Source of the DNA: Chryseolinea lacunae
Lineage (GTDB): Bacteria; Bacteroidota; Bacteroidia; Cytophagales; Cyclobacteriaceae
Length of the DNA: 64,000 nucleotides
Assembly: GCF_016735595.1 (NCBI RefSeq)
Contig: NZ_JAERRB010000015.1
Coordinates: 1 to 64,000, forward strand
Reading direction: 5' to 3'
The position numbers and the translations under genes were made by a program. The notes under the pieces were generated by a model, which saw nothing but the letters and a program-made list of their open reading frames with translations, was not told the DNA's origin and ran no database searches. Each line of letters opens with the position of its first letter. The first letter of the stretch is position 1. This document shows positions 13,514-22,097 of this stretch, one piece after another.

Positions 13514-14605
13514 ATGATGAGTAAAAATCTCATGTTCATGTTGGCCAGTGTGTGTGTTTTACTAAGCTACACAGGCTGCCATTCGAAGAAAGAAGAGAAA
13601 GAGGAGGCGACAGAATTTTTGGTCACCAATCCTTTAAAGAGAGACACGATCGTTACCCGCGAGTATGTGTCGCAAATCCGGTCCATTCAACACATCGAGC
13701 TGCGTGCCCTGGAGCGCGGCTATCTGCAGAAAATTTACGTTGACGAAGGTCAGTCTGTGAAGCAAGGGCAGCTTATGTTCCAGATCATGCCCATGCTCTA
13801 TAAAGCCGAGTTGCAAAAGGCCGAAGCCGAAGCCAACTTTGCCGAGATCGAGTATAAAAACACCAAGGTGCTGGCCGATAGCAACGTGGTGTCGGCCAAC
13901 GAGCTGGCCATGGCCCAGGCCAAGCTCAACAAAGCAAAAGCCGAACTTGCCCTGGCTGCCGTGCACCTGGGCTTCACCGAAATTCGCGCACCGTTCAATG
14001 GCATCATGGATCACTTCCAGGTGCGATTGGGAAGCCTCGTGGATGAAGGCGACCTGCTCACCACCTTGTCTGATAACAGCAAGATGTGGGTCTACTTTAA
14101 CGTGCCCGAAGCCGAATACCTGGAATATAAGAGTCACGCCAGAAAAGACAGCCTGATCAAGGTGCAACTGATGATGGCCAACCAGCAGATGTTCCAATAT
14201 CCGGGCGTGGTCGAAACCATTGAAGCAGACTTTAATAACGAGACGGGAAACATCGCGTTCCGCGCCACATTCCCCAACCCGAACGGATTGCTCAGACACG
14301 GCGAAACAGGAAATATCCGCATCGAACAACCCATCAACAATGGCCTGCTCATTCCGCAGAAGGCAACGTTCGAAGTGCTCGAAAAGAAATATGTGTATGT
14401 AGTGGATAAGGACAACGTGGTGCGGTCGAGAGAAATTACGATCGCCGCCGAGTTGCCTCACATTTTTGTGGTTCGAACCGGTTTGACGGCGGGCGACAGA
14501 ATTCTTCTGGAAGGATTGCGCCAGGTGCACGAGAACGAAAAGATTGCCTGCAAGATGGTGAAGCCGGATTCGGTTATCTCGCACCTGGAGTTGTATGCCG
14601 AATAA
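13514..14605 (+). CDS. RND efflux periplasmic adaptor (MFP) lipoprotein
   Basis: A 363-residue membrane-fusion protein. It has a lipoprotein signal ending at Cys22, then the barrel-sandwich start TREYVSQIRSIQHIELRALERGYLQKIYVDEGQSVKQGQ, a coiled-coil hairpin rich in Ala/Glu/Lys (about residues 95-150), the second lipoyl half FTEIRAPFNGIMDHFQVRLGSLVDEGD and beta-barrel and membrane-proximal domains. In this family the adaptor bridges the inner-membrane RND pump and the outer-membrane TolC channel. The pump and channel genes follow directly, at 23 bases and then with an overlap. Confidence 0.92.
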   Translation: MMSKNLMFMLASVCVLLSYTGCHSKKEEKEEATEFLVTNPLKRDTIVTREYVSQIRSIQHIELRALERGYLQKIYVDEGQSVKQGQLMFQIMPMLYKAELQKAEAEANFAEIEYKNTKVLADSNVVSANELAMAQAKLNKAKAELALAAVHLGFTEIRAPFNGIMDHFQVRLGSLVDEGDLLTTLSDNSKMWVYFNVPEAEYLEYKSHARKDSLIKVQLMMANQQMFQYPGVVETIEADFNNETGNIAFRATFPNPNGLLRHGETGNIRIEQPINNGLLIPQKATFEVLEKKYVYVVDKDNVVRSREITIAAELPHIFVVRTGLTAGDRILLEGLRQVHENEKIACKMVKPDSVISHLELYAE

Positions 14606-14628
14606 TCACATCCTAAAAAGCAGAACAC

Positions 14629-17600
14629 ATGTTTAGTAAGTTCATACGCAGACCGGTATTCGCTATTGTGATATCGATCGTCATAATCTTTGTGGGGGTG
14701 TTGGCTATCAAGAAGCTTCCCATCTCCCAGTTTCCCGACATTGCGCCCACCACGGTGAACATTTTCATCGCCTATCCCGGCTCGAGTGCCGATGTGTTGG
14801 TGAAGTCAACGCTCATCACACTGGAGCAGGCCATCAACGGTGTTCAGGACATGCGCTACATTGCCACCGATGCCACCAGCGCCGGTGAGGCCACGCTTCG
14901 TATCATCTTTGAGCCGGGGACCGACCCGAACGATGCCGTGATCCGGGTGAAGACCCGCGTGGATCAGGTGATGCCGCTGTTGCCGTTGCTGGTGCAACGC
15001 GAAGGGGTTATCATCACCCCAATCCAGCCGAGTATGTTGATGTATGTGAACCTCTACTCGAAAGAGAAGAGCATGGACGAAAAATTCCTGTTCAACTATG
15101 CCACGGTGAAGATGATTCCCGAGATTCAACGCACCAAGGGCGTGGCCCGTGCGCAAATATTGGGTAGCCGTCGCTATGCCATGCGCGTTTGGTTAAACCC
15201 CGAACGCATGCGTGCCTACAATGTGTCGGTAGAAGAGGTGATGGATGCCATTGGCGAACAAAGTATTATCGGTCGTCCTGGCCGGATTGGTCAAAGCTCG
15301 GGTATTGCTGCGCAGTCGCTTGAATATGTGCTTACCTACAAGGGGCGCTACAACAAGCCGGAGGAATATGAGAGTATCATTATCCGCGCCAATGCCCAGG
15401 GTGAAAGCATTCACTTGCGCGACATTGCCACGGTGGAGTTGGGTAGCGAGTTCTTCGACATCTATTCCAACCTCGACGGTCGTGCGTCTGCCGCCATCGT
15501 GTTGAAACAAAACTACGGAAGTAATGCCAGCGACGTTATCGAAGAAGTGAAAGCGAAACTCGAAGTGATGAAAGAGTCGTTCCCTCCCGGAATGGACTAC
15601 AAGATCAGCTACGACGTTTCTCAGTTTCTCGATGCGTCTATTGAACAGGTAATAGAAACTCTGCGCGATGCCTTCATCCTGGTGGCCATTGTGGTGTTTG
15701 TGTTCCTGGGCGACTGGCGCTCTACGCTGATCCCCATCCTGGCTGTGCCGGTGTCGTTGATCGGTGCCTTCTTTGTTATTCAGTTCTTCGGACTTTCCAT
15801 CAACCTCGTAACCCTCTTCGCCCTTGTGTTGGCGATCGGCATTGTGGTCGACGACGCGATTGTCGTCGTCGAGGCGGTCCACGCCAAAATGGAAGAGGAG
15901 CCGAACATCACGCCGTATAATGCGGTGAAGAAAGTGCTGGGTGAAATCAGCGGTGCCATCATCGCGATCACCATGGTGATGGTGTCGGTGTTTGTGCCGA
16001 TTTCATTCATGTCGGGTCCTGTGGGAACGTTCTACCGTCAGTTCTCGATCACCATGGCCAGCTCTATTGTGATCTCGGCCCTGATCGCCCTCACGCTCAC
16101 GCCAGTGCTTTGTGCCATGTTGCTGAAAAATCACCATGGTCATCCCAAGAAGAAAAACATCCTCACCAAGTCGCTCGATGCCTTCAACAATAGTTTCGAA
16201 AAACTGACCGGCAAATATGTTTGGTTATTGAAACTGATTGTGAACAGACGCGTGGTCACCTTTGGTATCCTGTTGTTGTTTTGCGCGGGCATTTACTACG
16301 AAAACAAGATTGTGCCATCGGGCTTTATTCCCAACGAAGATCAGGGAACAATCTATGCGATCATTCAAACACCTCCTGGTTCCACCCTTGAAAAAACAAA
16401 CCAGGTGTCGCAACGACTCCAGAAGATTTGTGAAAAGATCGATGGTGTGGAGTCTGTGTCGTCGCTGGCCGGCTATGAAATCATGACCGAAGGCCGGGGC
16501 TCCAACGCAGGTACCTGTTTGATCAACCTCAAGAACTGGTCGGAACGCCATCACACCGTGAAAGAGATCATGGAAGAACTGGAGGAGAAAACAAGAGGTC
16601 TCGGCGCCGTAGTCGAATTCTTCGAACCTCCTGCCATTCCCGGCTTTGGTACATCGGGCGGTTTCTCCATGCGTTTGCTGGACAAAACCACCGACACCGA
16701 CTATCACCAGTTCGACCAGATCAATAAAGAGTTCATGGAGAACCTGGGCAAGCGCAAAGAGCTTACCGGCTTGTTCACCTTCTTTGCCGCCAACTATCCT
16801 CAGTATGAACTGGAGATCGACAACAACCTGGCCATGCAAAAAGGTGTGTCTATCGGCAAAGCGATGGAGAACCTCAACATCATGATCGGTAGTACCTATG
16901 AGCAGGGCTTTATCAAGTTCAACCAGTTCTTCAAGGTCTATGTTCAGTCCGATCCAAAATTCAGAAGACTGCCGTCGGATCTGCTCAGCCTTTTTGTGAA
17001 AAACGATCAGGGTGAAATGGTGCCTTACTCGGCCTTTATGAAACTGAAGAAGGGTCAGGGGCCGAACGAAATCACGCGCTTCAACTTATACAACTCGGCG
17101 GCCATACAAGGGCTTCCGGCCAAAGGCTACACCACGGCCGATGCCATTCAGGCCATTCGCGAAGTGGCGGCCAAGACGTTGCCCAAGGGCTACGACATTG
17201 CGTTCGAAGGGTTGTCGTATGACGAATCGATTCGCGGCAACGAAGCGGTGTATGTATTCCTGGTGGTGTTGCTGTTTGTGTACTTCGTGCTGGCGGCACA
17301 ATATGAAAGCTTTATCATTCCGTTGGCGGTGGTGTTTTCGCTTCCCGTCGGGGTGTTTGGTTCGTTCTTTATGCTGAAGATGATGGGACTTGAAAACAAC
17401 ATCTATGCGCAAGTCGGGTTGATCATGCTCGTGGGCTTGCTGGGTAAAAACGCCGTGCTTATTGTGGAGTTTGCCGTGCAGAAACGGCAACAGGGAGAAA
17501 CGATTCTGAATGCGGCGATCGAAGGTGCGCGGGTGCGTTTCAGACCTATCCTCATGACGTCGTTTGCCTTTGTGGCAGGGTTGATACCGTTGATTATTGC

Positions 17601-17832
17601 CACGGGCGCAGGGGCCATCGGTAACCGCACCATTGGTGCATCTGCCCTTGGCGGTATGTTGTTCGGAACCATCTTTGGGGTGATCATCATCCCCGGCTTA
17701 TACTTTATTTTTGGTAGCCTGGCCGATGGTCGCCATCTGATTAAACATGAAGACGAAGATTCGTTGACCGAAAACCTGGTGCACCAAATGGACACCTTCC
17801 CCCAAACCGAAGAAAATGACCAACATGCGTAA
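14629..17832 (+). CDS. HAE1-family RND efflux permease (AcrB-like)
   Basis: A 1067-residue inner-membrane pump of full AcrB length. It starts with the typical MFSKFIRRPVFAIVISIVI. The proton-relay aspartate pair is in TM4, GIVVDDAIVVVEAVHAKMEE, and TM10-12 include the AAQYESFIIPLAVVFSLPVG and GLLGKNAVLIVEF segments of this family. Two large periplasmic loops (about residues 40-330 and 560-870) form the porter domain. Homology to HAE1 predicts export of hydrophobic or amphiphilic compounds such as drugs, dyes or bile-like agents; the actual substrate is unknown. Its stop overlaps the TolC gene start. Confidence 0.95.
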   Translation: MFSKFIRRPVFAIVISIVIIFVGVLAIKKLPISQFPDIAPTTVNIFIAYPGSSADVLVKSTLITLEQAINGVQDMRYIATDATSAGEATLRIIFEPGTDPNDAVIRVKTRVDQVMPLLPLLVQREGVIITPIQPSMLMYVNLYSKEKSMDEKFLFNYATVKMIPEIQRTKGVARAQILGSRRYAMRVWLNPERMRAYNVSVEEVMDAIGEQSIIGRPGRIGQSSGIAAQSLEYVLTYKGRYNKPEEYESIIIRANAQGESIHLRDIATVELGSEFFDIYSNLDGRASAAIVLKQNYGSNASDVIEEVKAKLEVMKESFPPGMDYKISYDVSQFLDASIEQVIETLRDAFILVAIVVFVFLGDWRSTLIPILAVPVSLIGAFFVIQFFGLSINLVTLFALVLAIGIVVDDAIVVVEAVHAKMEEEPNITPYNAVKKVLGEISGAIIAITMVMVSVFVPISFMSGPVGTFYRQFSITMASSIVISALIALTLTPVLCAMLLKNHHGHPKKKNILTKSLDAFNNSFEKLTGKYVWLLKLIVNRRVVTFGILLLFCAGIYYENKIVPSGFIPNEDQGTIYAIIQTPPGSTLEKTNQVSQRLQKICEKIDGVESVSSLAGYEIMTEGRGSNAGTCLINLKNWSERHHTVKEIMEELEEKTRGLGAVVEFFEPPAIPGFGTSGGFSMRLLDKTTDTDYHQFDQINKEFMENLGKRKELTGLFTFFAANYPQYELEIDNNLAMQKGVSIGKAMENLNIMIGSTYEQGFIKFNQFFKVYVQSDPKFRRLPSDLLSLFVKNDQGEMVPYSAFMKLKKGQGPNEITRFNLYNSAAIQGLPAKGYTTADAIQAIREVAAKTLPKGYDIAFEGLSYDESIRGNEAVYVFLVVLLFVYFVLAAQYESFIIPLAVVFSLPVGVFGSFFMLKMMGLENNIYAQVGLIMLVGLLGKNAVLIVEFAVQKRQQGETILNAAIEGARVRFRPILMTSFAFVAGLIPLIIATGAGAIGNRTIGASALGGMLFGTIFGVIIIPGLYFIFGSLADGRHLIKHEDEDSLTENLVHQMDTFPQTEENDQHA

Positions 17833-19261
17833 GAAGAGAATAGTTATGTATCTGGGGATTGTATGTACGTCCCTGTTATACACCGCGTGCACGCTACCCT
17901 CATCGTTGGTGCCGCGCGCAGAAAACAAAAGCACACCGCCGGCCTACTACGCATCGAAAGATACGGTGAACACGGCCTCGGTGAAATGGAGAGAGTTTTT
18001 TACCGATCCCTATCTCGCCGCCTTGATCGACACGGCCCTGAAGAACAACCAGGAGTTTAACATCATGGTGCAGGAGATCAACATCGCCAAGAACGAGATA
18101 CGCGCCCGCAAAGGAGAGTACCTTCCGTTTGTGGATATCCACGCCGGTGCCGGTGTTGAGAAGACCGGACGCTACACCCGCCTGGGTGCCGTGGAAGAAA
18201 CCGACGAGATTGCGCCCGGCAAAGCCTTTCCCGATCCGCTCACCGACATCATGGTGTCGGCAAATGCATCGTGGGAACTTGACGTGTGGCGGAAGCTGCG
18301 CAATGCCAAAAAATCGGCTGTGCTGCGTTATCTCTCTACGGTGGACGGCAGAAACTTTATGGCCACCAACCTGATTGCCGAAATCGCCAACTCATACTAC
18401 GAGTTGGTGGCGTTAGACAACCAGCTGGAAATTCTGAAACACAACATCGACATTCAGCAGGACGCGTTGGAGATTGTGAAGCTGGAGAAACAGGCCGCGA
18501 AAGTGACCGAGCTTGCCGTGCGCAAGTTTGAAGCCGAGGTGCTCAAGAACCAGAGCCGCCAGTATTATATCATTCAGCAAATTACGGAGACCGAAAACGA
18601 GATCAATTTTCTGGTGGGAAGATTCCCGCAGCCCGTGCCCCGAAACTCTCAGGGGTTCACGGCCATGGTGCCCTATGCGGTTCAGGCCGGCATCCCGTCG
18701 CAGTTGTTGGCAAACCGTCCCGACATCCGTCAGGCCGAGCAGCAGTTGATTGCATCGAAGCTGGATGTGAAGGTGGCAAAGGCAAATTTTTATCCTTCGT
18801 TCCGCATCACCGCCGGCATTGGCTATCAGGCCTTCAACACCCACTACCTGTTTCAAACACCTGCGTCGATGTTGTATTCGGCCGCGGGAGAGTTAGTGGC
18901 ACCGTTGATTAACCGGAATGCGATAAAGGCATACTACTATTCTGCGAATGCCAAACAGATCCAGAATGTCTACAATTATGAGCGCACCATTTTGAATGCC
19001 TACATCGAAGTGGCCAACCAGGTGTCGAACATCAGCAACCTGGAGAAGAGCTATGATCTGAAAGCAAAGCAAGTGCAGGCCCTCACGCAGTCGATCAACA
19101 TTTCGACCGGCTTGTTCAAGTCTGCCCGTGCCGACTACATGGAAGTGTTGCTGACCCAACGCGATGCCTTGGATTCGAGATTTGAATTGATTGAGACCAA
19201 GATGCAGCAGATGCATGCCGTGGTAAACATCTACCGCGCGCTTGGCGGTGGCTGGAACTAA
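17816..19261 (+). CDS. TolC/NodT-family outer-membrane efflux lipoprotein
   Basis: A 481-residue outer-membrane factor. The signal LGIVCTSLLYTAC ends in a lipobox-like cysteine, as in NodT-type channels. Two OEP repeats of long helices are visible, each with the start WREFFTDPYLAALIDTALKNNQEFNIMV or the later LLANRPDIRQAEQQLIASKLDVKVAKANFYPSFRI. ATG codons at 17816 and 17825 both overlap the permease stop, so translation is coupled. It completes the tripartite efflux system and is followed by a strong terminator. Confidence 0.93.
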   Translation: MTNMRKKRIVMYLGIVCTSLLYTACTLPSSLVPRAENKSTPPAYYASKDTVNTASVKWREFFTDPYLAALIDTALKNNQEFNIMVQEINIAKNEIRARKGEYLPFVDIHAGAGVEKTGRYTRLGAVEETDEIAPGKAFPDPLTDIMVSANASWELDVWRKLRNAKKSAVLRYLSTVDGRNFMATNLIAEIANSYYELVALDNQLEILKHNIDIQQDALEIVKLEKQAAKVTELAVRKFEAEVLKNQSRQYYIIQQITETENEINFLVGRFPQPVPRNSQGFTAMVPYAVQAGIPSQLLANRPDIRQAEQQLIASKLDVKVAKANFYPSFRITAGIGYQAFNTHYLFQTPASMLYSAAGELVAPLINRNAIKAYYYSANAKQIQNVYNYERTILNAYIEVANQVSNISNLEKSYDLKAKQVQALTQSINISTGLFKSARADYMEVLLTQRDALDSRFELIETKMQQMHAVVNIYRALGGGWN

Positions 19262-19311: not shown

Positions 19312-19351
19312 AAAGCCCGCAGGTCGAAAGGCTTGCGGGCTTTATTTTTTT
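19312..19351 (+). terminator. rho-independent terminator of the RND operon
   Basis: AAAGCCCGCA at 19312-19321 pairs with TGCGGGCTTT at 19334-19343 (12-base loop) and is followed by a T-rich run to 19351. It lies between convergent genes. Confidence 0.8.
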
Positions 19352-19376: not shown

Positions 19377-19559
19377 TCACACCAGGAGCGTAGCACAAAT
19401 TCCTCCGGCCACAATGAGCCAGGCTGCGGCGAGAATAAAAAATACCTGCGCGGCCTTTTTGTCTTTGGGGCGTTTAACGAGTCCAATCACCAGGAGCAGA
19501 AACGGTGTGCCAAAGGAGAAGAGGAGGGCAAGGATGATTAAGGTTGCGAGTCCGTCCAT
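19377..19559 (-). CDS. small two-helix membrane protein of the radical SAM operon
   Basis: A 60-residue protein made of two hydrophobic helices (about residues 4-26 and 38-58) joined by a basic loop VKRPKDKKAA. Its ATG lies 22 bases inside the end of the radical SAM gene, which argues for coupled translation and against a chance frame. Function is unknown; it could anchor or assist the enzymes encoded before it. Confidence 0.6.
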   Translation of the reverse strand: MDGLATLIILALLFSFGTPFLLLVIGLVKRPKDKKAAQVFFILAAAWLIVAGGICATLLV

Positions 19560-20950
19560 AGGGGTTCGGTTTGTAGTTTTTGAAGGCGTTCTCTTTTTTC
19601 GTCGCGATAGAACAGGTTCATCGTTTCGAATGGAATGATTTTATAGTCTTTGTTCACAATGTGCACACACGATTTTTTGACAGACCGCACATCGAAATTG
19701 TAGGCGTCTATGAATTGCATGATGATGACGCGGAACAGGTTGTTGTAGCTTAGTTCGGGCGCATGAATCTGCGGCAGGCAACACAGCAGCGAATGCAGCT
19801 TTTCGGTGGCGCCCTCAATAGAGTTTCCGGTGCTGAACAGGTTTATCATTTTGCTGTGAAGTTGTTCGTCCTGTTCGTAGACGATGGTGTTGCGGCTGTT
19901 GTCGAGCAGGTCGGCGGGGTTGACGTAGCGGGTGAGCGGAAATACTTGTCCGCTCAGCTTCAGGGCATAGCCCATCACCAACGCGTCGGGATTGCATGGC
20001 ACGGGAATGAGGTCGTCGGCATTGAAGACGTCTGTCTGTTCCAGAATTTTTCTCCGCACTTCGGTGAGCGTGATGCGGTCGGTGAGCGTATCGAAATTTT
20101 CGAGTCGCCCGGCGATTTGTGTGGGTTGCAGGGTGACGCCGCGCACACAGGGTTGCAAGAGCGCAAAGTCTATGATCTTGCCGATCTCGTCGTCGTTGAG
20201 ATTTTTTTGAATGGTCACCACCAGGGTAGTCGACAGGTTGAGGGCATTGAGGTTTGCCAACGCCTGTTCGCGGATGGAGAGGAGATTGGCCGCGCGCATA
20301 GACTGCAACACTTCCGGGCGGAACGAGTCGAACTGCAGGTAGATCTCGAAGTCGGGTGCGTAGGTGGCCAGGCGTTTTGTGAATTCGAAATCCTTGGCGA
20401 TGGTGATGCCGTTTGTGTTCAGCATCACGTGTTTGATGGGCAGCGACTTGGCGTAGTCGAGAATTTCGAAAAGTTGTGGGTGCAGGGTGGGTTCGCCACC
20501 GCTGATCTGGATCACGTCGGGCTCGCGTTCGTTGGCCACCACGGCGTCGAGCATTTTCTTTACTTCCTCCAGGGTGCGGTGGCGTCCATAGGTGGGCGAG
20601 GAGCCGGCGTAGCACGTGGGGCACGTGAGGTTGCAGCGGTCCGTAATTTCCACCACCGTGAGACAGGAGTGCTGCTCGTGGTCCGGACAGAGGCCGCAGT
20701 CGTAGGGACATCCGAAATGCGTGGATGTGTTGAAGGTGTAGGGGGTTTCGGAAGGTTTGTTGTAGTTCCGGATGTTCTTGTAGTAGGGTACATCGTCGGC
20801 AATAAGAACTTTGGATGCGCCGTGTTCGGGGCAGCGCTTCAGCATATACACCTTGTCGTCTTCGAAGACAATTTTGGCATCGATGCGTTTCAAACACTCC
20901 GGGCACAGGCTCAGCGTGAAATCATAGTAGGTATACTTTCGGGTTGGCAT
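19538..20950 (-). CDS. radical SAM enzyme, MJ0619/Tes-like
   Basis: A 470-residue radical SAM protein. The cluster motif is CNLTCPTCYA (Cys106, Cys110, Cys113), followed by the GGEPT motif ISGGEPTLHPQLFEIL. Extra cysteines precede it: CPEC near residue 16 with Cys40, and FGCPYDCGLCPDHEQHSC (residues 79-96). That preface is what I know from the archaeal MJ0619/tetraether-synthase (Tes) group, whose characterised members make carbon-carbon bonds on lipid chains or methylate pterins. Assignment to the group is by motif layout; the substrate here is unknown. It overlaps the Lgt-like gene by 29 bases and the small membrane protein by 22. Confidence 0.85.
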   Translation of the reverse strand: MPTRKYTYYDFTLSLCPECLKRIDAKIVFEDDKVYMLKRCPEHGASKVLIADDVPYYKNIRNYNKPSETPYTFNTSTHFGCPYDCGLCPDHEQHSCLTVVEITDRCNLTCPTCYAGSSPTYGRHRTLEEVKKMLDAVVANEREPDVIQISGGEPTLHPQLFEILDYAKSLPIKHVMLNTNGITIAKDFEFTKRLATYAPDFEIYLQFDSFRPEVLQSMRAANLLSIREQALANLNALNLSTTLVVTIQKNLNDDEIGKIIDFALLQPCVRGVTLQPTQIAGRLENFDTLTDRITLTEVRRKILEQTDVFNADDLIPVPCNPDALVMGYALKLSGQVFPLTRYVNPADLLDNSRNTIVYEQDEQLHSKMINLFSTGNSIEGATEKLHSLLCCLPQIHAPELSYNNLFRVIIMQFIDAYNFDVRSVKKSCVHIVNKDYKIIPFETMNLFYRDEKRERLQKLQTEPLWTDSQP

Positions 20951-21683
20951 GCGACAGGGTTGTTAACGTTCGGCGGTAGTATAGAAAGCAAATAACACAA
21001 AGCCATTGAATGGTGCTCAGTCCCAGGAAAAAGAAAACATTCGGCTTGATAAATTCGAGGAGAAACCTGAATCCGAAATAGCAAAGCATAAAGAGTTTGA
21101 ATAGAAGTCCGTTTGGCATTTTCTTCCGGCGATAAAGTCTATGCAGTGCCAGGAACAATATCGCTAAAAATACAAGCTCATACAATGCCAGGGGATGGCG
21201 TTTCAGTCCGTCGCCCAGATTCATGCCCGTGATGAATGTGGTGGTGGTTCCATAGGTAAATTCATTCGTGCCCGACAAAAAACACCCGATGCGGCCAATA
21301 AATATTCCCACGATGATGGGCAGCGTGAACAGGTCGCCCGATGATTGTTTTTCGCCAATGATGCGCTTGGCTGTTTCCACCCCCAGCAGGCCGCCAAACA
21401 ATCCGCCCATAATGGTCTTGACATTGAAGAGAACAAGCAGGCTGACGTTACTGAAATCGACCAATGGATTTTCCAGAAATCCCACCACGCGCGACCCCAG
21501 CAGTGCACCAAGGGAAGCGCCGAGAATGATGGTGAGCCGGTTGGCCGAAGGAATGGGATCGGTTGTTTGTTTTTTCAGGAAAACATAATAGCGGTAGCCC
21601 AAAAAGAAAGCCACATACTCAAGGATCAGGTGAACGTTGATAGTCCAGCCCGCCAGTTGGGGTTCGAACGGAATTGACAACAA
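20922..21683 (-). CDS. Lgt-like (prolipoprotein diacylglyceryl transferase family) membrane protein
   Basis: A 253-residue membrane protein with about seven helices and Lgt landmarks: GRIGCFLSG (residues 130-138, equivalent to the Lgt signature GRIGNFxNGE), and KRHPLALYE. Two positions differ from classical Lgt: the signature Asn is Cys134 and the essential HGG histidine appears replaced by Met92 in KTIMGGLFGG. Lgt moves diacylglycerol from phosphatidylglycerol to the lipobox cysteine; with these changes the reaction here may differ. Translation begins at one of two tandem TTG codons, with a stop 12 bases upstream. It is first in an operon with the radical SAM enzyme. Confidence 0.75.
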   Translation of the reverse strand: MLSIPFEPQLAGWTINVHLILEYVAFFLGYRYYVFLKKQTTDPIPSANRLTIILGASLGALLGSRVVGFLENPLVDFSNVSLLVLFNVKTIMGGLFGGLLGVETAKRIIGEKQSSGDLFTLPIIVGIFIGRIGCFLSGTNEFTYGTTTTFITGMNLGDGLKRHPLALYELVFLAILFLALHRLYRRKKMPNGLLFKLFMLCYFGFRFLLEFIKPNVFFFLGLSTIQWLCVICFLYYRRTLTTLSHANPKVYLL

Positions 21684-21794: not shown

Positions 21795-22097
21795 ATGATC
21801 GCCACCCTTGTCCATGTGTTTGTGAAACCGGAATTCCGCGAAGCGTTTGTTGAGGCTACGCGCGCGAATCATGAACGGTCTGTTCAGGAGCCGGGCAACC
21901 TGCGCTTTGATATTTTACAGGATGCAGGCGATCCGGACAAGTTTGTCTTTTATGAAGCTTACGCGAGCGAACAGGCTGCGGCCAACCACAAGGAAACCGA
22001 GCACTACAAAGTTTGGCGCGACACGGTGGCTTCCTGGATGGCCAAGCCGCGTGAGGGCGTGAAACATCAGATGCTGTTCCCGGTTTCTAACGCCTGA
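21795..22097 (+). CDS. ABM-domain monooxygenase (YgiN/LsrG-like)
   Basis: A 100-residue protein with the ferredoxin-like antibiotic-biosynthesis monooxygenase fold: MIATLVHVFVKPEFREAFVEATRANHERSVQEPGNLRFDIL, then FVFYEAYASEQAAANHKETEHYKVW. Family members oxidise quinol-type substrates without cofactor, or isomerise phospho-AI-2 (LsrG). The alcohol dehydrogenase gene starts 4 bases later, so the two should act together on one carbonyl or aldehyde pathway. Confidence 0.88.
   Translation: MIATLVHVFVKPEFREAFVEATRANHERSVQEPGNLRFDILQDAGDPDKFVFYEAYASEQAAANHKETEHYKVWRDTVASWMAKPREGVKHQMLFPVSNA

Follow-up and report, generated by a model that had tools for sequence, protein, structure and literature searches.

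A recurrent three-gene module linking an Lgt-like protein and a Tes-like radical SAM protein to small membrane proteins with a conserved C-terminal cysteine

The stretch of DNA analysed here, referred to as the window, comprises positions 1 to 64,000 of contig NZ_JAERRB010000015.1 of Chryseolinea lacunae (assembly GCF_016735595.1), a member of the Bacteroidota. Between positions 19377 and 21683, three overlapping genes encode a divergent relative of Lgt, a radical SAM protein related to the archaeal tetraether synthase Tes, and a small membrane protein. These genes are a recurrent linked module and, judging from their sequences, we lean slightly towards the view that they form a dedicated protein-lipidation module with the small protein as its substrate. 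An earlier note on this DNA had suggested that the two enzymes together modify membrane lipids or lipid anchors. Such a role remains plausible, given the divergence of the Lgt-like subfamily, the linkage of the two genes and the kinship with Tes; what the note overlooked was the likely target, and we think that the small-protein family is probably the most informative signal of the module.

An overlapping operon and its recurrence

All three open reading frames (ORFs) lie on the minus strand, as do the features placed within them below. In reading direction the operon runs from the Lgt-like gene (20922–21683; 253 amino acids, TTG start) through the radical SAM gene (19538–20950; 470 amino acids) to the small-protein gene (19377–19559; 60 amino acids), and the overlaps of 29 and 22 bases given in the earlier note are correct. 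Upstream the operon is bordered by a divergent gene with an ABM domain at 21795, and downstream by a convergent gene ending at 19261, together with a GC-rich hairpin and T run at about 19315–19350 (by eye).

This arrangement recurs in many genomes and is thus not a product of chance. In a sample of 291 genomes from the order, the Lgt-like gene (E below 1e-50) is present in 41 and the radical SAM gene (E below 1e-30) in the identical 41, as judged by comparing the lists by eye; the count leaves out 14 genomes with an Lgt match at E between 1e-13 and 1e-10, which we took as the level of canonical Lgt. Across 395 genomes sampled from the phylum, the Lgt-like gene (E below 1e-20) occurs in 32, the radical SAM gene in 34 and both in 31. 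In two genomes (G355 and G581), the radical SAM proteins are all distant ones (32–34% identity) and no Lgt-like gene was counted; in G383, a distant radical SAM gene adjoins an Lgt-like gene lying under the phylum threshold (78 bits with a custom profile). The enzyme genes can also be separated yet both present, as in G109, G261, G072 (about 5 kb apart), G324 and G552.

Linkage was scored in a set of named loci consisting of the best 80 of 566 matches to an alignment of the radical SAM proteins, all from Bacteroidota by title, 79 of which contain the full gene. By script, the Lgt-like gene lies directly upstream of the radical SAM gene in 66 of these 79 loci. The other 13 comprise three with a slightly longer overlap (L185, L190 and L195), seven in which the gene is found further upstream, one with fragments (L136) and two at a contig end (L175 and L197). 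Neighbours beyond the module vary widely between loci, and there is good support for the module as a unit. In the window, the opposite strand next to the module (13514–19261) carries an apparent RND efflux operon, with a membrane fusion protein, an inner-membrane pump and an outer-membrane factor recognized by eye.

Small proteins and their C-terminal cysteine

The usual end of the small proteins is a stretch rich in Lys and Arg, then a helix, then G-x-G-x-C. In the window's protein, alignment places the family's conserved cysteine at Cys55, whose codon was read from the sequence at 19395–19397. A first motif identified a candidate within 1.3 kb in 77 of the 79 loci, and L130 and L150 hold one each by eye. 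Later analyses used 127 loci drawn from both locus sets, with radical SAM matches over 700 bits (125 distinct proteins, two records occurring twice; the distant groups L112–L117 were set aside). A second script found a candidate in 121 of these 127. Of the six misses, two hold one by eye (L166 and L103), two lack one in their vicinity (L102 and L110), L122 sits at the edge of its contig, and L123 was not inspected. The full motif occurs in 157 of the 744 ORFs that lie within 1.5 kb downstream of the radical SAM gene. The corresponding counts are 3 of 483 for upstream ORFs, 10 of 1469 for those far upstream and 15 of 1205 for those beyond the 1.5 kb on the downstream side, and a closely similar filter passed 17 of 3943 ORFs on the opposite strand.

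The pattern behind these candidates required a cysteine near the end and G/S/A-type residues at positions −2 and −4 from it, so the invariant cysteine, the short tail and the residues at −2 and −4 are partly built into the motif-selected sets. The comparison was repeated with a choice blind to cysteine: for each of the 125 distinct proteins, hydrophobic ORFs on the same strand that start −60 to +300 bases from the end of the radical SAM gene were considered and the nearest was taken. Such an ORF is present for 118 (none for L102, L122, L103, L105, L107, L120 and L123; in L103 and L107 the small gene sits between the two enzyme genes, by eye). A cysteine falls within the last 22 residues in 116 of the 118; for the other hydrophobic ORFs on the same strand of these loci, the figure is 35 of 80. 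A late cysteine alone is accordingly not rare; its position, by contrast, is. Among the 116 proteins, Gly occupies −2 in 103, Gly or Ser occupies −4 in 109 and Gly follows at +1 in 81, and the tail after the cysteine has a median of 5 and a maximum of 16 residues. At −1 the residue is Ile in 60, Val in 13, Thr in 11, Ala in 7 and Ser in 6.

Bacterial lipoboxes have Gly, Ala or Ser at −1, and the mature chain follows the cysteine. The 116 proteins depart from this arrangement, by which precursors of lipoproteins, and of the diacylglyceryl-bearing peptides termed DAG-RiPPs, are recognized. Because the −1 residue is usually bulky and the chain stops a few residues after the cysteine, cleavage by LspA is unlikely. 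For comparison, Leptospira has an Lgt lacking the usual signature and lipoboxes that tolerate bulky −1 residues, as described in the accessible part of PMC4758666.

Outside this end the proteins vary freely. One to four divergent copies stand in tandem, and in an alignment of 42 motif-selected members with 22–43% identity to the window's small protein the cysteine is the only invariant column. Forms with one, two or three helices (by eye), the shortest noted being a single helix of 38 amino acids, and a form of 368 amino acids have only the C-terminal end in common. An AlphaFold2 model of the window's protein predicts a helical hairpin (pLDDT 80), for which a comparison with viral protein folds gave no match at E up to 0.001. 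Pfam returned no match above cut-off for the same protein. DUF4064 was considered as a family for the small proteins and not accepted: its best E was 3.4e-6, 25 of the 42 members matched at E up to 1, and one member reached 19 bits against 32.1. A search for further substrates elsewhere in the genome gave a best other match at E 0.008 with a stop inside, and none was accepted (three remaining matches were not inspected). In the first ORF of L169 and in L045_07, Phe or Tyr stands at the place of the cysteine, beside copies that carry it; these are possibly decayed or non-substrate copies.

The orientation of the last helix can be predicted from charges. In 149 motif-selected proteins (13 of 162 candidates having been dropped by a helix and motif filter), the flank preceding this helix is net positive in 144 and more positive than the tail in 141, which by the positive-inside tendency would put the cysteine on the periplasmic side. 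The conserved C-terminal cysteine in a lipobox-like setting suggests that the module probably acts on small membrane proteins dedicated to it.

The same features recall the precursors of ribosomally synthesized and post-translationally modified peptides (RiPPs): short, divergent, multi-copy genes beside a gene for a modifying enzyme, with a variable body and a conserved recognition end. We entertained the possibility that the radical SAM enzyme acts on the small protein itself, forming a thioether or carbon–carbon link at or near the cysteine, with the Lgt-like protein in a secondary role; the single cysteine in 112 of the 149 motif-selected proteins would suit such a scheme. However, the predicted topology puts the cysteine in the periplasm, away from a presumably cytosolic enzyme, the conserved gene set of the loci viewed has no transporter or protease, and the closest solved relative of the radical SAM protein acts on lipids. 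We consider this RiPP-like reading distinctly unlikely.

Residues and folds of the two enzymes

The Lgt-like protein matches the Pfam family PF01790 (LGT) at 83.5 bits (cut-off 24.9) and falls below the equivalog cut-off of the Lgt model TIGR00544 (44.4 against 118.9). Its AlphaFold2 model (pLDDT 89.3) shows the Lgt fold: E. coli Lgt (5azb) is the sole PDB match at E up to 0.001 (E 5.3e-6, TM 0.64). The protein contains GRIGC and RHPLALYE, so the GRIG and HPLALYE motifs named in the earlier note are indeed retained, and the replacement of the signature Asn by Cys also holds, with Cys134 (codon at 21282–21284) at the position of E. coli Asn146. The note had further placed a Met where the histidine of the HGG motif (E. 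coli His103) should be. The histidine is missing, but the Met depends on the alignment; in ours, a gap lies opposite His103, and Met92 lies opposite Asp97.

These changes extend to the whole group. In an alignment of 131 rows (125 core and 6 distant), picked by hidden Markov model score from the fetched loci with close relatives kept in, His103 is absent and Asn146 is replaced by Cys in all 131. Arg143 is conserved in 131 of 131 and Arg239 in 130, the remaining row being a gap, and the Glu243 position is Glu or Asp in every row bar one that is gapped. The core group adds invariant residues of its own, namely His18, Glu22, Glu103 and Lys106. Judged by sequence, the protein is a separate subfamily of Lgt, which shares with the canonical enzyme its fold and the positions Arg143, Tyr235, Arg239, Glu243 and Glu202, and differs from it in His103, Asn146, the invariant core residues and its place below the TIGR00544 cut-off. 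In E. coli Lgt, the available part of PMC8689077 describes His103 as the proposed base, Asn146, Tyr235, Arg143 and Arg239 as important for activity, and both His103 and Asn146 as required.

Could this simply be a divergent Lgt serving ordinary lipoprotein biogenesis, with incidental neighbours? The Pfam match and the fold are what such a role would predict. However, the window's genome has five LGT matches in all, and three of the other four keep His103 and Asn146, so that the additional classical Lgt whose presence had been proposed as a check is found three times over. Together with the loss of both residues in every aligned row and the strict co-occurrence with the radical SAM gene, this led us to reject the ordinary role, which we regard as highly improbable. 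The fourth other paralogue (L004; L206:4132-4920; G000:C28:128682-129413), which lies outside the window, likewise shows GRIGC, with Cys at the Asn146 site, lacks His103 and represents another non-canonical type of Lgt; no radical SAM or small-protein gene was seen beside it in its fetched locus.

The radical SAM protein matches two Pfam families, Radical_SAM and the HMPTM zinc ribbon, HMPTM reflecting a former label of this radical SAM group. Its closest solved relative is archaeal tetraether synthase (PDB 7tol, E 4e-71). The best NCBIfam score is to the TrsS model NF045646 (331.3 bits, cut-off 490), and the Tes model NF045702 gives 300.7 bits (equivalog cut-off 450); as both scores are under cut-off, the protein is by these models neither Tes nor TrsS. 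Scores and metal sites indicate the Tes/TrsS group, and a pterin methylase, considered as a candidate, was rejected.

The metal sites can be placed by their motifs, and residues of the C-terminal part by alignment with 7tol, using an offset of 20 residues between the chain and the published numbering. A rubredoxin-like site, C16-x2-C19-x20-C40-x2-H43 (20822–20905), is followed by the cysteines of an N-terminal auxiliary [4Fe-4S] cluster, C81, C85 and C88 (20687–20710), by the radical SAM motif C106-x3-C110-x2-C113 (20612–20635), which also rests on the Pfam match, and by a C-terminal auxiliary cluster region from Met411 to Cys428 (19667–19720). The first three motifs and Cys428 are invariant in ten aligned members, and Met411, at the position of Met439 of Tes, is kept in at least nine of the ten. 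The rubredoxin, N-terminal auxiliary and radical SAM ligands and Met439 are described for Tes and MJ0619 in the accessible part of PMC9433317, which also presents Tyr459 as conserved in archaeal Tes; in the window's protein this residue is Ile431, and Ile is invariant among the ten members. The earlier assignment to a Tes/MJ0619 type thus stands as to relationship and fails as to membership: domain order, metal motifs and the Met439 position are shared, whereas the window's protein is bacterial, coupled to an Lgt-like and a small protein, carries Ile for Tyr459 and scores below the equivalog cut-off. In one distant relative (L114; G407:C49:34518-35885), a single in-frame TGA was counted inside the radical SAM match and may be either the end of the gene or selenocysteine.

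The module extends beyond Bacteroidota. In three Actinobacteria, namely Mycobacterium branderi, M. avium subsp. hominissuis and Nonomuraea, all three parts are clustered on a plasmid: a GRxGC Lgt-like gene, one or two small proteins, which end in ...GxCTG(L/I)NP..., and a Tes-like gene. The Nonomuraea record is unannotated at the cluster, and its ORFs were read directly from the sequence. Its candidate substrate (L209:4129-5235) is the 368-residue form, whose helices follow a long front rich in Pro and Gly; the C-terminal element can thus sit on a much larger protein. As to a mobile or viral origin, a search of viral contigs found no relative, and some copies of the module lie on plasmids.

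The radical SAM tree (36 sequences) and the Lgt tree (34 sequences), both rooted at the midpoint and with several long branches, show the same three module groups: the Bacteroidota core, L112–L114, and the Actinobacteria with L115. Tes-like proteins whose partner is a methyltransferase (L210, L235 and L236) or that lack an Lgt-like neighbour (L116 and L117) lie outside these groups. In the former, on Mycolicibacterium and haloarchaeal plasmids, the Tes-like gene is followed by a gene with a methyltransferase domain, a pairing unlike the Lgt-like one.

A possible lipidation route and related systems

We propose that the small protein would serve as substrate, its last helix mimicking a lipoprotein signal peptide: a Lys/Arg-rich cytoplasmic stretch, a hydrophobic core and G-x-G-x-C at the periplasmic face, where the active site of an Lgt would meet the cysteine. 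The Lgt-like enzyme, with its head-group-binding arginines kept and its catalytic histidine gone, would transfer a glycerolipid group to this cysteine. The Tes-like enzyme would act on hydrophobic chains, either preparing a donor lipid in the inner leaflet or joining or modifying the chains of the lipidated peptide; archaeal Tes takes up two lipids and links them at the ends of their chains (PMC9433317, in the part available). We infer the lipidation of the cysteine, as well as the kind of lipid and the sequence of events. More tentatively, and with a good deal of doubt, we consider that a Tes-type enzyme may link a lipid chain on the cysteine, placed there by the Lgt paralogue, either with a second chain or with the peptide itself; the product, a new kind of ribosomal lipopeptide, would have an anchor of permanently cross-linked or membrane-spanning lipid.

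Several observations weigh against lipidation of the small protein. Both residues needed in E. coli Lgt (PMC8689077, in the part available) are missing, so the Lgt-like enzyme may perform different chemistry or none. A cysteine predicted to be periplasmic and a presumably cytosolic radical SAM enzyme would meet only with difficulty. In one genome listed as 100% complete (G307; L227, G307:C10), the Lgt-like gene stands alone, with no radical SAM match and no small protein nearby, and in L102 and L110 there is no small gene near the radical SAM gene. The first ORF of L127 and that of L169 are without the cysteine, present in further copies at these loci, and L045_07 has Tyr in its place, again beside copies with Cys. 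A weak branch in the Lgt tree (92/67) joins canonical Lgt and L004 to the Lgt-like proteins of Actinobacteria and L115 and separates the latter from the rest of the module's Lgt proteins, and a single origin of the module's Lgt is for this reason not established. Lastly, in three genomes with separated enzyme genes (L229, L230 and L233) the small gene is found beside the radical SAM gene, away from the Lgt-like one, which raises the possibility that its real partner is the radical SAM enzyme.

This last pattern, together with G324 and G552, in which no small gene was found near either of the separated enzyme genes, leaves room for the RiPP-like scheme and for a further one, in which the small protein serves the enzymes as an anchor or partner in the membrane and the module makes a free membrane lipid such as a chain-joined or chain-modified glycerolipid. 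The chain-joining activity of Tes (PMC9433317) would fit such a product, bacterial Tes homologues have been listed and proposed, by way of conjecture without proof in the accessible parts of PMC8941075 and PMC11868695, to make membrane-spanning lipids, and the small gene mostly overlaps or closely trails the radical SAM gene. However, free variation outside the C-terminal end, up to four divergent copies and a single-helix form of 38 amino acids would be unexpected for a partner, and an enzyme of Lgt type would be left without an acceptor. We judge a partner or anchor role to be unlikely.

If the small protein is indeed lipidated, the module would represent a protein-lipidation route separate from Lgt–LspA–Lnt, in which lipid may be transferred by an enzyme that has no catalytic histidine. 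It also provides one group of bacterial Tes homologues with a definite enzyme to work beside and a definite candidate substrate, in Bacteroidota that can be cultured. A literature search, judged mostly from titles and the openings of abstracts and with thin coverage of subscription papers, found no description of this three-gene set.

Two further known systems come close. MYXO-CTERM proteins, the targets of myxosortase, likewise carry an invariant cysteine beside a C-terminal helix, and an Lgt-like lipidation is predicted for them, the modifier being given as unknown in the available part of PMC11980579. There, however, the cysteine comes first, then the helix, then an Arg-rich tail in the cytoplasm, and a CPBP protease makes the cut; in the small proteins described here the order is reversed, and no linked protease gene was seen at the loci viewed. 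DAG-RiPPs, as far as the accessible part of PMC12636315 describes them, are similar in that a ribosomal peptide presents a cysteine placed for a diacylglyceryl group, but they rely on the canonical lipoprotein pathway, an N-terminal lipobox and an MNIO partner, whereas the module of C. lacunae and its relatives has an Lgt paralogue of its own, a Tes-like partner and a cysteine at the C terminus.

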